A DNA stretch of 64,000 nucleotides from assembly GCA_000687975.1 (NCBI GenBank), contig JIAB01000001.1, positions 1,054,001 through 1,118,000 of the forward strand, written 5' to 3'. This document shows, in pieces, positions 44,925 to 59,455 of this stretch (the first letter of the stretch is position 1; each line of letters starts with the position of its first letter). Position numbers and translations under genes: made by a program. The notes below the pieces were generated by a model. It searched no databases and was not told where the DNA came from. It saw nothing but the letters and a program-made list of their open reading frames with translations. This DNA comes from Lachnospiraceae bacterium AC2031 (GTDB lineage: Bacteria > Bacillota > Clostridia > Lachnospirales > Lachnospiraceae).

Positions 44925-46616
44925 TTATTCTGTTACTTCTACTCCATTATCTGAAGAAGCATATTTTCCATCCATGTAGACAAAATCATACATCAGGTAA
45001 GTTGTTGGATCGTAGCATCTATAAACTCTGAAGCCATCATCCATGTTTATTTCCTGTACATACTTTTCACCATCAAAATCAGATTCATCAAAGTATTGCT
45101 TACCAAAATCCAAACTTCTAAATGCTATACTTCCTGAATAAATCTTTTCATTCTCTACAATATCATTTAGATATACAGTATAGATTTCTTTACCTGTCTG
45201 AATGTTTCCGTCCTGATCGATAAATTCTGCAGGCTCCTCAGTTACTGTAAAGCCCTTATCCTCATATTCCTTTACTGCATTTGCAAGAACTGTATAATCC
45301 TTATAATTAAAGCTCTTACTGAATAACATAAACTCATCTGAAGGAACTGCATCCTCTGGAATTGTAAATACTTCATAACCAAAATTTATCATATGCTCGT
45401 CTGTTGAAGCTGTCTCAGCAAGTGGAATATCAAGTCCGCCCTCTGATGCCTCTTCAGGTTCAGTGACTTCTTCAGGTTCAGCAACTTCTTCTAGGTCAAT
45501 AACCTCCTCTGGTGCCTCCTCAGGGGCTTCTGTAACTTCTTCTGGTGCTTCTTCAGGAGCCTGTGTATCAGGCTCTACCTGATCTTCCACCTTTACACTT
45601 GATGTCTTTTCTGGCTGTTCAGCAGCATCTACTTCATTTGCTCTTACAGCTGCCGATGAAACGCCTGCAATTGCTCCAATAGCAAGAACAGAAACCGCAA
45701 TAGCTACCACCTTTGAAGAAACCTTATTCTTCAACATATTTTTAATTCTCATCTTTACCTCCATTCCACCAAAGGACTTTTGGGTAAAGAATGTTAATGG
45801 CAAAACTCTGCATCTTTTCTGCTTCATAGCACGGCAGACGATTGACGTACAGTAGCTCTTCTTAACTTCATTTCCTAAAAGATTTATGACCTCTTCATCA
45901 CATCTCATCTCCAGGTCACTGCACATCATTCGGTAGGCTATCCAGACAAATGGATCAAACCAGTGCACGCATACTATAAACATGCCCAAAAGCTTGGTGA
46001 TATTGTCGTGATTCTTTAAATGAATCTTTTCATGCAACAGTATATACTTCTTCTCAGAATCATCGAGTCCTGTAGGAAGCCATATACTCTGGTTTATAAC
46101 GCCCACCACAAAAGGTGTTTCTATAAGATTGGATTCAATATATGATGTGCCCTCTACTCTCTTAGTATTTCGAAGGACAATCAATAGTTTAATGGTCTTA
46201 AGCACCACATACATAAGCAATGCTGCAAGACCAACTATCCATATGCTGAATAATACTGTTTCAATGCCAATACTATGGCTGGCTGGACCTCTCGCTTCAC
46301 CGATTTCCCATGCCTTTTCCTTCATCTGATTAGCATAATCCACCAATGTCTGATCAACTGTCACTTTACCATACTCTGTGGCAGTTCCCGATACTGCACT
46401 TGAACTGGCAGGAGTGCCAGCCACCTTAAGATTGAGTATACTAATAATTGAGTTGAAATTAACTGGACATAATAGCCTAACTGCCGGAACAAGCCAGAAA
46501 AGGATAGTATATCTCTTTGGAAATCTTTTTAATACGAATCTAAGAAGAATAACCGCGAGTATTGCTATACTTCCATAAAGACTCATATTTAATAAATACT
46601 TTATAGCTACTTCCAT
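44925..46616 (-). CDS. BlaR1/MecR1-type M56 metallopeptidase sensor with unusual C-terminus
   Basis: A 563-residue membrane sensor. Four helices in residues 5-330 enclose the M56 zinc protease site (His195-Glu196 and His199 in LLHEKIHLKNHD). After the last helix (about 300-320) comes a Pro/Glu repeat linker (PEEAPEEV-type units, about residues 340-395) and an outer domain of 165 residues. This outer domain has no SxxK/SxN/KTG beta-lactam-binding motifs, so the ligand is not a penicillin-type acylating drug, and I do not recognise its fold. It should cleave the BlaI-type repressor encoded three bases upstream when triggered. Confidence 0.88.
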   Translation of the reverse strand: MEVAIKYLLNMSLYGSIAILAVILLRFVLKRFPKRYTILFWLVPAVRLLCPVNFNSIISILNLKVAGTPASSSAVSGTATEYGKVTVDQTLVDYANQMKEKAWEIGEARGPASHSIGIETVLFSIWIVGLAALLMYVVLKTIKLLIVLRNTKRVEGTSYIESNLIETPFVVGVINQSIWLPTGLDDSEKKYILLHEKIHLKNHDNITKLLGMFIVCVHWFDPFVWIAYRMMCSDLEMRCDEEVINLLGNEVKKSYCTSIVCRAMKQKRCRVLPLTFFTQKSFGGMEVKMRIKNMLKNKVSSKVVAIAVSVLAIGAIAGVSSAAVRANEVDAAEQPEKTSSVKVEDQVEPDTQAPEEAPEEVTEAPEEAPEEVIDLEEVAEPEEVTEPEEASEGGLDIPLAETASTDEHMINFGYEVFTIPEDAVPSDEFMLFSKSFNYKDYTVLANAVKEYEDKGFTVTEEPAEFIDQDGNIQTGKEIYTVYLNDIVENEKIYSGSIAFRSLDFGKQYFDESDFDGEKYVQEINMDDGFRVYRCYDPTTYLMYDFVYMDGKYASSDNGVEVTE

Positions 46617-46619
46617 ATA

Positions 46620-46985
46620 TTATTCCTCAATATGTGATCCAATAAGCTCGATGAGTTTTTCTGCTTCTTCCTTGCTTATCGAGCCATTTCCTAAAAATGC
46701 ACTGACAAAAGCAGGAAGGGAACCACCGAAACTCTTTTTAACTAAATGCTCACTTTCAAATTCCTGTACCTGCTCACGAGGCACAAGAACAGTGACTACA
46801 GAGTTATTATTCTCAACCAGTTCCTTTTCAACAAGTTTACGAAGCATTGTGTAGGTTGTAGATTTTTTCCAGGAGAGCTTTTCCTCACAGAGCTTGACTA
46901 GCTTACCTGATTCGATAGGGGCGCTGTCCCAGATCACATCCATCATCCTAAATTCGCTTTCACATAATAATAAATCTTTCATCAC
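46620..46985 (-). CDS. BlaI/MecI-family repressor
   Basis: A 121-residue penicillinase-repressor-family protein with winged helix (SEFRMMDVIWDSAPIES, WKKSTTYTMLRKLVEKELV) and a dimerising C-terminal part with the NF/SF-like protease-sensitive region (LVKKSFGGSLPAF). It is the first gene of the BlaI-BlaR pair and should bind the two dyads found 90-130 bp upstream, thus repressing itself and the sensor until the sensor protease cuts it. Confidence 0.92.
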   Translation of the reverse strand: MMKDLLLCESEFRMMDVIWDSAPIESGKLVKLCEEKLSWKKSTTYTMLRKLVEKELVENNNSVVTVLVPREQVQEFESEHLVKKSFGGSLPAFVSAFLGNGSISKEEAEKLIELIGSHIEE

Positions 46986-47145: not shown

Positions 47146-49812
47146 TTAAAACCCATATTGTCCCTTAAGTCCTTTGTAATCGCTCTCCAGCTGGGCAGCC
47201 GATAACAGCTTTGAGTTTTCTCCCCTGATTATCAGCTGTATCAGCCCATCAGATGTAGCTACTGTAATATCAAGGTTCTTAGAGTTCTCTACCGTAAAAC
47301 GAGCTATATATTGGTCAGCCGTTTCAGCCTCTTTTGTATACACAACATGTACGCCAAGGTAGTCCATCTTCTCAGTAAAATGGCCTCGCACGTTATACGC
47401 ATCGAAGACAACTATAACTTCCGTCCCCTTCAGTGCTTTATATTCGGACATCATATCAAGGAGCTTATATCTTGCTCCCTCCAGATCAAGGGACTGCTGT
47501 TCTTTCGATACATTTGTATTTTCTATAAGTACCTTAAGATCCTTCCATGCATGAATGATATTATAACCATCCACCAGGAGATACTTCTTTTTATCAACCA
47601 CTTTAGTTACGGTCTTTGAAGAACTCGTCCGTCTGTTTTCTGCCTGCACAGTACTCTTACTAAGATATACGCGCTTTGTCCTTCTGTTTTCATTTCCTGC
47701 ATTTGAATGCGTCGCACTTCTTAGAATATCATCTATCTCATCAGTTCCAAGAGCTCTATCTCTATTCTCATGAGACTTATTCTTCTCAGAACGTAGAGCT
47801 GCCTGCCTAAGAGATTCAGCCTCACGAAGAATTCTTTCATCATCTGTCTCATTATCAGTATCAAAATACTCTGACTCCTTAGAATCGAGATGCATCAACT
47901 CTTCGCACTCGAACCAAGGAACATAGTATCCCGCTCCATGATCAATAAATATACTGCCTGAAGGATTATCCTTATCAGAATCTGGATCATATCCCTTTTC
48001 AGTGATCACATCCTCAGATACGGACTCTGGCATATCTGTGTATCCAGCGAACTTCAGTTCTATAGAACCTTCTCCTGAGGTATACTCAGTAAGCTTCGTC
48101 TGATAATCAGCTATACATCTGGCAGGAGCATTTCCAACCAGAGTACCATCTGCACTGAGACTCACGCTTCCTCCCATGTCAGATATTTCAGTCATTACAC
48201 GTCCCACACTTTCTGTTGGTAGCGTGATAACAAAATCATACATAGGTTCCAGAAGCAGATTATCTGTCTTCATCAGTGCCTGTCTTATAGCCCTCCTTAC
48301 AGACTCACGGAAATCCTGACTGTCTGTATGTTTAAGATGAGCCTTACCTGCTATAAGGGTAAATCTTATATCTGTAAGTGCAGCTCCTGTAAGAACTCCA
48401 ACAGGCAGATGATTAGACAGTGTTGAAAGGATTGTCTTCTGCCAGTTAATGCCCAGATCGTCTACACTCAGATCACTTGCCACTTCAATTCCTGTGCCAC
48501 GAGGCAGAGGTTCCAAAAGGATCTGTACCTCAGAATAATGTCGAAGTGGTTCAAAATGTCCATAACCAATAACAGGACTGGCTATTGTCTCCTTATAGAC
48601 AAAGCTTCCCTTGGTGAAATCAATATTAACATCATAGAGCTCTTTTACACGTTCTTTCAGAATCTCCATCTGAAAGACTCCCATTACAGATACACTGGCT
48701 GTATCCTCATTTGTTATCTCAAGCTGAAGAAGGGGATCCTCAGCACATAGCTCCCGAAACTTTGGAAGGAATACTCTGAGAGGAACATCTGGCGGAAGCA
48801 ACAGATCGTACCTAAGAACTGGCTGACATATAGGAGTATCGTCATCGTACTCGTCTCCTATTCCCATACCTGCAAATGTATTATCCAGTCCCAGGAATGT
48901 AACAATATCACCAGCTTCTGCCTTATCCAGGCTATCAAACTTTCCGCCGCTATAGCACCTTATCTGACTGATCTTTTCGCCGACCAATCTTTCATCAGCG
49001 ATTTCATTTCTTACCGATATACTGCCGCCCGTAACCTTGGCATAACTAAGCTTCTGACCATTCTCATAACCAATCTTAAATATCTTGGCTGAGAAGGCAT
49101 CCTTATATTTTATATCAGGAAGATATTCTGTGATCACACTGATAAGCGTATCTACGTTCTCGTTTTTCAGTGCTGAACCAAAGACAACTGGATGAAATCT
49201 TCCGGAAGTCAATAGGTTTACATAATCTTCTTTGGCGAGTGCACCTTCCTCAAGATATTTTTCTATTGTTTCTTCTGAGAGAGACGCAATCTCTTCTTCT
49301 TTTTCTGAGATTCTCTCATATGGAACAAATCCCTCACTGATCTTTTCTGTCAGTTCTGATATAAGCTCTTCCTTTGAGCGTTCGCACATATCCATCTTGT
49401 TAACGAATACCACATATGGAACCTTATAATTCGTCAACATACTTACCAGACGCTTGGTGGATGGCGTCACACCATCAGGACCACTCACTAAAAGAAGAGC
49501 CAGATCAAGCACCGAAAGTACTCTCTCCGCCTCACCTATAAAGTCAGCATGACCAGGAGTATCTATTATTGTGACTCTTAGATCATCTTCGCTCTTGTTG
49601 ATATCATTTCCCTTGTCCACATTGCAGAGAGCCTGCTTTGACAGGATAGTAACGCCTCTTTTCTTTTCCAGAGCTTCTGTATCAAGAAATGCGTCGCCAT
49701 TATCTACTCGTCCTGCATTTCTTATCATTCCCAGATTATAGAGAATGCTTTCTGTAAGTGTGGTTTTACCTGCATCAACGTGAGCAAGGATACCCAATGT
49801 AAGTTTCTTCAT
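47146..49812 (-). CDS. Tet(M)-like translational GTPase fused to YacP/Rae1-like NYN nuclease domain
   Basis: An 888-residue protein. Residues 1-640 are an EF-G/Tet(M)-type GTPase with G1 AHVDAGKTT, G3 DTPGHAD and G4 NKMD, plus domains II-V. At the tip of domain IV the loop reads AGKAHLKHTDSQDF; the YSPVST motif that displaces tetracycline in Tet(M) is missing, so drug protection is unlikely. A charged linker (about 640-740) leads to a NYN domain at 741-888 with the acidic residues D748 (LLVDGYN), D804 (VVFDAYN), D833 (ETADQY) and D855 (VATSDG). YacP/Rae1 cuts mRNA in the ribosomal A site, where Tet(M)-type factors bind, so a ribosome-targeted nuclease is a reasonable idea. Monocistronic. Confidence 0.88.
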   Translation of the reverse strand: MKKLTLGILAHVDAGKTTLTESILYNLGMIRNAGRVDNGDAFLDTEALEKKRGVTILSKQALCNVDKGNDINKSEDDLRVTIIDTPGHADFIGEAERVLSVLDLALLLVSGPDGVTPSTKRLVSMLTNYKVPYVVFVNKMDMCERSKEELISELTEKISEGFVPYERISEKEEEIASLSEETIEKYLEEGALAKEDYVNLLTSGRFHPVVFGSALKNENVDTLISVITEYLPDIKYKDAFSAKIFKIGYENGQKLSYAKVTGGSISVRNEIADERLVGEKISQIRCYSGGKFDSLDKAEAGDIVTFLGLDNTFAGMGIGDEYDDDTPICQPVLRYDLLLPPDVPLRVFLPKFRELCAEDPLLQLEITNEDTASVSVMGVFQMEILKERVKELYDVNIDFTKGSFVYKETIASPVIGYGHFEPLRHYSEVQILLEPLPRGTGIEVASDLSVDDLGINWQKTILSTLSNHLPVGVLTGAALTDIRFTLIAGKAHLKHTDSQDFRESVRRAIRQALMKTDNLLLEPMYDFVITLPTESVGRVMTEISDMGGSVSLSADGTLVGNAPARCIADYQTKLTEYTSGEGSIELKFAGYTDMPESVSEDVITEKGYDPDSDKDNPSGSIFIDHGAGYYVPWFECEELMHLDSKESEYFDTDNETDDERILREAESLRQAALRSEKNKSHENRDRALGTDEIDDILRSATHSNAGNENRRTKRVYLSKSTVQAENRRTSSSKTVTKVVDKKKYLLVDGYNIIHAWKDLKVLIENTNVSKEQQSLDLEGARYKLLDMMSEYKALKGTEVIVVFDAYNVRGHFTEKMDYLGVHVVYTKEAETADQYIARFTVENSKNLDITVATSDGLIQLIIRGENSKLLSAAQLESDYKGLKGQYGF

Positions 49813-49856: not shown

Positions 49857-49893
49857 ACAAAAAAATGCACCATGTAGAATGTACATGGTGCAT
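49857..49893 (-). terminator. Terminator of the thiamine operon
   Basis: ATGCACCATGT pairs fully with ACATGGTGCAT (49865-49893, loop of seven), followed on the minus strand by seven T. Directly after tenA. Confidence 0.9.
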
Positions 49894-54347: not shown

Positions 54348-54385
54348 TAAAAAAAGCAGATACATCCAACCGGACATATCTGCTT
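54348..54385 (-). terminator. TPP-riboswitch-controlled terminator
   Basis: AAGCAGATA pairs with TATCTGCTT (54354-54385) and is followed on the minus strand by seven T. It lies between the aptamer and thiM, so ligand binding should favour this hairpin and stop transcription. Confidence 0.85.
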
Positions 54386-54394
54386 AATACACGA

Positions 54395-54485
54395 CTATGA
54401 TCCCTACGTTGGCATTATCCAAATCAGGTAATGGGTCCAGACCATACAGTTTGTTCTCAGCCGAATCTCGCTCAGCTCCCCTTTT
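54395..54485 (-). promoter_or_regulatory. TPP riboswitch (THI element) upstream of thiM
   Basis: On the minus strand the conserved aptamer parts appear in order: GGGGAGC, GGCTGAGA, GACCC, ACCTGATTTGGATAATGCC and AACGTAGGGA. The helices P2 to P5 can be drawn with usual lengths. It is followed by a terminator and thiM, so TPP should turn the salvage operon off. Confidence 0.95.
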
Positions 54486-54500
54486 TTATTAACAGAGTGC

Positions 54501-59326: not shown

Positions 59327-59365
59327 TTTCTTGTGTTAAGGAACACCTTCGGTGGTTCTTAAAAA

Positions 59366-59455
59366 CTTAATCGGCAAAGCAAGAGAAATCTTGTGACGCA
59401 AAGCTATAGGGTCTGAATTTTTTCTTAAAAGTAGTATGACAGCCAGTTGCATTCA
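59366..59455 (+). promoter_or_regulatory. Cyclic di-GMP-I (GEMM) riboswitch aptamer
   Basis: The conserved GEMM-I parts are in order: CGGCAAAGC, a stem AAGA-GAAA-TCTT with GNRA tetraloop, GTGACGCAAAGCTATAGGG, a variable stem, and ATGACAGCCAGTTGC with the tetraloop-receptor region. The aptamer precedes a terminator and the gene for a secreted wall protein. c-di-GMP enzymes are encoded elsewhere in the window. Confidence 0.92.

Follow-up and report, generated by a model that had tools for sequence, protein, structure and literature searches.

The gene studied here joins, in a single reading frame, a GTPase resembling Tet(M) and EF-G to a nuclease domain of the YacP/Rae1 type, and it raises the question whether such a protein protects the ribosome from tetracycline or brings a nuclease to it. 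It lies in a window of 64,000 nucleotides (positions 1,054,001 to 1,118,000 of contig JIAB01000001.1) from Lachnospiraceae bacterium AC2031. Rae1 of Bacillus subtilis is reported to cut mRNA in the ribosomal A site (available portions of PMC6613710 and PMC12320835). Ten Clostridiales 'Tet' proteins with a YacP-like NYN domain were described by Atkinson 2015, with a suggested role in resistance (available portion of PMC4342817); they have the same architecture as the window protein and, matched by the description of that architecture, very probably belong to the same group. The original prediction had called the architecture widespread yet without described function; the former is upheld by the census below, whereas the architecture has been in print since 2015, according to the part of PMC4342817 available. 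Besides Atkinson 2015, no paper joining both parts was found in a search that was thin on subscription papers, and an earlier notice elsewhere in the literature is possible. Where that study covered ten species and suggested resistance, the present comparison points to a non-Tet subfamily that replaces yacP; new are the census, the subfamily status, the apparent replacement of yacP at its ancestral site and the shortened tails of fused nucleases.

Gene, frame and domain layout

The fusion gene is an intact frame of 888 codons with no internal stops on the minus strand (49812 to 47146, Table 1); read on the plus strand, the same stretch contains many stops. Frame and Pfam matches confirmed that a real frame of this length joins the two parts, at the coordinates first proposed, and the strand was corrected to minus. 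The domain identities proposed at the outset were borne out as well, GTP_EFTU, EFG_IV and NYN_YacP all scoring over their Pfam cut-offs. The G-domain motifs (G1 AHVDAGKT at residues 10-17, RGVTI at 52-56, DTPGH at 84-88, NKMD at 138-141 and GSA at 212-214) are intact, and their core residues are invariant in 14 fused rows of the alignment; by its GTP_EFTU match and these motifs, the protein is assigned on sequence to the translational GTPase superfamily. The genome of AC2031 (one contig, 3.19 Mb) contains the fusion gene once, the other translational GTPases scoring lower, and this gene gives its sole NYN_YacP match.

Table 1. Features of the fusion locus (window coordinates)
Feature	Residues	Position	Strand	Basis
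GTPase-NYN fusion gene, 888 aa, ATG start	1-888	47146..49812	-	Frame and Pfam
G domain	4-232	49117..49803	-	Pfam GTP_EFTU, 170.5 bits (cut-off 26.5); motifs from alignments
Domains II-III	240-400	48613..49095	-	Pfam EF-G_D2 (22 bits) and EFG_III (19.1 bits), both under the cut-offs of 27
Domain IV	406-516	48265..48597	-	Pfam EFG_IV, 50.1 bits (cut-off 24)
Domain IV tip loop GKAHLKHTDSQDF	489-501	48310..48348	-	Alignments
Domain V	520-600	48013..48255	-	Pfam EFG_C, 55 bits (cut-off 27.9)
Subfamily tail	601-641	47890..48012	-	Alignments
Linker	about 642-743	47584..47889	-	Short motif (EIDDILRSATH in the window), then basic stretch
NYN_YacP nuclease domain	744-888	47149..47583	-	Pfam PF05991 (aa 745-880), 130.2 bits (gathering score 24.6); alignments; structure-sequence search
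Terminator-like hairpin, 12-pair stem then six T		49865..49893	-	Lies between upstream TenA gene and fusion

Linker length ranges from 68 to 115 residues in 25 of the 28 rows, with one of 197 and two unmeasurable (median 75); the window protein has 98. In the AC2029 relative (L216 6001-8955) it is nearly 200 residues long, enlarged by low-complexity repeats, which would be in line with a flexible tether.

The two halves and their relatives

The GTPase half has the EF-G-like body of Tet(M), Tet(O), Tet(Q) and TetB(P), with an identity of about 27-30% to Tet(M, O, W, S), and shares with EF-G the domain order, the G motifs and a GxxH at the domain IV tip. Trees were computed from 47 rows (without L139, L129 and L104) and from 48 rows (additionally without seven close fused rows). 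In these trees the subfamily, whether fused or not, stands as a single clade (100/100) separate from EF-G, Tet(M, O, S, W), Tet(Q) and TetB(P)-like proteins; within it, ten unfused GTPases are the sister clade of the fused ones (99/99 and 99/98). The unfused GTPases of Bifidobacterium avesanii, Collinsella and Ligilactobacillus salivarius group with the fused proteins (99/96) and nest inside them with weaker support (87/87); these three seem, from their placement, to have lost the NYN domain.

At the domain IV tip the window protein has GKAHLKHTDSQDF aligned where Tet(M) has GLYYSPVSTPADF, a difference already noted in the original prediction. The tip reads HTxGGDF in 39 of the 43 subfamily rows, the exceptions being the window protein and its close kin L103 and AC2029, which have HTDS(Q/R)DF, and the degraded L104. 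The motif SP[VA]STPADF, derived from the rows compared here, occurs in each of the six Tet classes compared (Tet(M), (O), (S), (W), (Q) and TetB(P), the last represented by a row 91% identical to the reference; Otr(A) is outside this set) and in none of the 43 subfamily rows, the window included. Two TetB(P)-like proteins (L141 and L327) have neither motif; L141 is also under the curated Tet cut-off, and L327 is without a score. Regarding the curated NCBIfam models, the best match of the window protein was tet_protect with 370 bits, half of the cut-off of 775; the same shortfall is seen for a typical fusion (432 bits) and for an unfused member (406 bits), whereas the control, a Tet protein of a family-mate (L142), passes with 852.6 bits. 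The curated EF-G model gives 225 bits against a cut-off of 659, and the VDSSEMAF of EF-G is absent. Fused and unfused members carry a tail of about 40 residues with the consensus NPTGSVFCAHGAGFxVPWDEVxxYMH, which the aligned EF-G and Tet(M, O, S, W, Q) rows do not show. A zinc site in this tail was considered and rejected, its cysteines being absent from the window protein. The fusion of genome G149 (L104 4674-7460, 928 aa) is strongly divergent, with 25% identity and a domain IV tip and domain V that are unrecognisable in the alignment; it may serve another role.

The nuclease half shares with B. subtilis Rae1/YacP (PF05991) the NYN domain, the DGYN and TAD motifs and four acidic residues, and its nearest solved structures by sequence are those of Rae1/YacP (5mq8 and 5mq9, E about 2e-15). 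The acids lie at the predicted places, D748, D804, D833 and D855 aligning with Rae1 D7, D53, D81 and D104. They are invariant in all 103 rows (57/57 fused and 46/46 stand-alone), an alignment in which about 12 genes occur twice and in which fused and stand-alone rows were split by frame length, so that the stand-alone set includes a few broken fusions; the loss of these acids in homologues, named beforehand as an observation that would speak against the proposal, was not seen. Rae1 is a stand-alone protein of 170 aa encoded within cysS-mrnC-rlmB-rae1-sigH, whereas the window nuclease is fused and encoded elsewhere in the genome. The window protein and its genus-mate L103 also have A in place of Rae1 E85 and are without the about 30 C-terminal residues usual in the YacP family; the tail, E85 and R165, all missing in the window protein, are common YacP features and not formally defining. 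Judged by the alignments, the window copy and its close kin are divergent from the rest of the subfamily, and with A for E85, no tail and an altered tip this genus is a poor bench representative.

Shortened tails are common among fused nucleases. In the full table of the family, 65 of 129 fused proteins have a PF05991 match that stops short of position 160 of 166, versus none of eight stand-alone ones; among the 60 stand-alone rows listed for the class, best scores first, none has such a match. The loci L010-L069 are top-scoring matches and as such biased towards complete tails. Some matches continue past the stop codon, so that short tails are if anything undercounted. The equivalent of R165 is kept in 30 of 57 fused versus 43 of 46 stand-alone rows, and R118 in 25 of 57 versus 44 of 46. 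The available text of PMC6613710 lists Rae1 R166P among B. subtilis suppressors that are ascribed to a loss of Rae1, and places this in one pathway with rlmB; this only hints at the tail, since residue 166 is variable in the stand-alone set (R in 21 of 46 rows), the conserved residue being R165. The tail may aid free Rae1 on the ribosome, a part that the GTPase would now fill in the fusions; other causes of the relaxation are possible.

Distribution and the ancestral rlmB-sigH site

The family sample consisted of 150 genomes from 149 genera, that of AC2031 included; relatedness is ignored in all census counts. NYN domain and GTPase form one gene in 129 of the 150 genomes, in 124 as frames of at least 800 codons, which argues against an assembly artefact, and in five only in pieces, which lie at contig ends or frame breaks. 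Both halves occur as separate genes in six genomes (G017, G022, G043, G048, G082 and G137), the NYN domain without a subfamily GTPase in two (G005 and G054) and neither half in 13, and the GTPase without NYN in none of the 150. Among the non-fusion genomes, an unfused GTPase is thus present in six of eight with NYN versus none of 13 without it (Fisher p 0.0005, kinship ignored).

In the class sample of 293 genomes, NYN_YacP was found in 192 and the subfamily GTPase in 123 (132 matches less nine genomes excluded as Tet-like, their identity being only 31-35%; the partial matches in G295 and G351 were kept). NYN is present in 116 of the 123 genomes with the GTPase versus 76 of the 170 without it; for unfused GTPases the figure is 13 of 20 genomes, which does not differ significantly from the 76 of 170 (p 0.10), and only 13 of the approximately 89 class genomes with an unfused NYN have an unfused GTPase. 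Seven of the 123 GTPase genomes are without NYN, so the GTPase must have a use of its own too and can outlive the nuclease. Unfused subfamily GTPases without any NYN_YacP match were observed in G174, G177, G203, G217, G326 and G433. Within the phylum sample, 19 of 249 genomes match, one of which (G642, 37% identity) may be merely Tet-like. In Lachnospiraceae the fusion is a core gene, in other Clostridia it is common, and within the phylum sample it is rare; the earlier expectation of a wide spread in Clostridia agrees with these counts, which extend to Clostridia families besides Lachnospiraceae.

Regarding plasmids, the GTPase half matches 470 records; 55 of the 60 listed are annotated tet(M)/tet(S) and five belong to this subfamily, with an identity of 39-43%. 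The NYN half matches 23 plasmid records, those of Agathobacter and Monoglobus being fusions by annotation, and among the records matched are twelve of Clostridioides difficile (about 97-150 kb; H86-H97) at 41% identity. A Ligilactobacillus salivarius megaplasmid carries an unfused GTPase labelled tetracycline resistance (L161 3986-5920) beside rpsN, and the GTPase query matches 39 plasmid records of Ligilactobacillus, of which some have true Tet(M). The Agathobacter fusion and the Ligilactobacillus unfused GTPase are annotated 'TetM/TetW/TetO/TetS family tetracycline resistance', as the original prediction had anticipated of automated annotation, and the Monoglobus fusion 'translation factor GTPase family protein'. 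Two 'phage' records that contain the fusion are probably bacterial DNA. A 129-kb B. subtilis 'plasmid' record (L330) carries cysS-mrnC-rlmB-rae1-sigH-rpmG-secE, which we take to be chromosomal genes.

The gene order cysS-mrnC-rlmB-yacP-sigH of B. subtilis holds for most stand-alone NYN genes: among 17 such loci, rlmB was found in 13, sigH and mrnC in 12 each and cysS in nine. In the fetched stretches around 25 fused loci, rlmB, mrnC and cysS were not found, and sigH occurred in one (G339). The fusion has not moved far away everywhere, since that of G339 lies only 4.7 kb from rlmB. Of 20 fusion genomes searched for the ancestral site, all have rlmB and 15 have sigH within the flank; no NYN match lies between the two genes at 13 of these 15 readable sites, and in AC2031 they are separated by 56 nt without yacP. 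G171 retains an NYN remnant between rlmB and sigH (L310, about 2358-2688) with 12-15 stops in each of the three frames, and G430 has an intact yacP at this site beside its fusion. When six fusion genomes were rechecked, a second NYN_YacP match over the cut-off was present only in G430; the second matches in G269, G323 and G356, partial and under the cut-off, were rejected as real copies. In the tree, a 100/97 split separates the fused NYN of G430 from the native yacP of this genome, which therefore was not the source of the fusion. Given the sites without yacP and the remnant in G171, the fusion in Lachnospiraceae can be read as the usual YacP, placed away from the ancestral locus, which would largely have taken the place of the separate nuclease.

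Proposed function, rival explanations and neighbourhood

The reading we prefer, with a probability of roughly 0.55, is that the fusion represents the Rae1/YacP nuclease of its lineage, permanently tethered to a Tet-like but distinct GTPase, and that it would cut A-site mRNA in a GTP-driven manner. In its favour are the conserved G motifs and nuclease acids, the presence of both parts in one frame, the ancestral sites without yacP in most fusion genomes examined, the family sample in which no GTPase occurs without NYN, and the tail features that many fused nucleases have lost. Against it stand the class-wide link between unfused GTPase and NYN, which is not significant, the GTPases that occur without NYN elsewhere, the yacP kept by G430, the nearness of the G339 fusion to rlmB and the divergence of the window copy. 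Ribosome binding, A-site cleavage, their order and the takeover of docking are what we infer. The GTP-bound GTPase half would dock on a paused or stalled ribosome with a free A site, and domain IV would probe the decoding site. Upon GTP hydrolysis domain IV would leave the A site, and the tethered NYN domain could reach it by the flexible linker and cut the mRNA, after which ordinary rescue could act; ribosome targeting would in this way have been handed from the nuclease to the GTPase. Tet proteins and EF-G place domain IV in the A site. Domain IV and NYN cannot share that site and would compete for it, so a sequential model, with the GTPase acting first and the nuclease after hydrolysis, must be assumed.

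A bolder form of this proposal is tentative, and we would give it rather less than even odds: the protein might be a single-polypeptide no-go decay factor, whose GTPase surveys empty A sites and on GTP hydrolysis delivers its own nuclease, and which has displaced free Rae1 in most Lachnospiraceae and much of Clostridia, the unfused sister GTPase being a hidden partner of stand-alone Rae1 where both exist. Were this correct, a gene that is core to many gut Clostridia and in some copies labelled resistance would encode a ribosome-surveillance nuclease, and resistome counts would be corrected. It would also reveal a way in which Rae1 can be brought to ribosomes, as well as a bacterial GTPase-plus-nuclease system whose logic is comparable to that of eukaryotic no-go decay. 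Thanks to the unfused sister GTPase, the partnership can be tested in strains that have separate parts.

The two halves might instead merely share a gene, the GTPase being a rescue or translocation helper and the nuclease a Rae1 without need of GTP, fused for co-expression or tethering. GTPases without NYN (the seven class genomes, and the Bifidobacterium, Collinsella and L. salivarius members) and the many class genomes with NYN and no GTPase fit such an arrangement; the retention of the fusion across most of Lachnospiraceae and in other Clostridia families does not, nor do the many nucleases relaxed at the tail, as would be expected if the GTPase took over docking, and we consider mere gene sharing unlikely. 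Less probable again is a GTPase-guided enzyme that processes rRNA or tRNA in ribosome assembly rather than cutting mRNA. An older prediction for NYN domains, cited in the available part of PMC4342817, was of this kind, yacP sits with rlmB and mrnC (annotated as rRNA methyltransferase and mini-ribonuclease 3), and a ribosome-bound GTPase would suit late assembly; the studied relative Rae1, however, is reported to cut A-site mRNA in the papers cited at the outset.

The remaining candidate, a protein that has gained an RNase and protects the ribosome against tetracycline or some other drug acting there, is the least probable of all. It has the suggestion of Atkinson 2015, the annotation of relatives and tet_protect as best curated match on its side. 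That match reaches only half the cut-off passed by a family-mate's Tet protein, and the subfamily is a separate clade without the tip motif of the six Tet classes checked (the TetB(P)-like L141 and L327 are without it as well). Moreover, the gene is core and not patchy, and the two genomes looked at in this respect (G117 and G026) carry Tet proteins besides. The fusion is therefore probably not a tetracycline resistance protein, and the original prediction to this effect is in keeping with the tip loop, the curated score and the tree.

No neighbour recurs in more than three of the 25 fused loci among the clusters listed, so operon logic gives no function for the fusion, and no functional tie of the neighbouring genes to it is apparent. 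Upstream, the strand of the fusion also carries genes for a TenA-type protein, a methyltransferase and a ThiD-like protein (the last judged by eye). The hairpin between the TenA gene and the fusion suggests separate transcription units, although it is weak by count (one found against a mean of 1.7 in shuffles). Downstream, a BlaI-like repressor is encoded beside a BlaR1-like M56 protein containing a long stretch rich in E, P and A (44925-46985, minus strand). A TPP riboswitch (54384-54492, minus strand, 55.7 bits) probably serves the thiamine-type genes upstream of the fusion, and a c-di-GMP-I riboswitch aptamer is present at 59363-59454 on the plus strand (63.5 bits).
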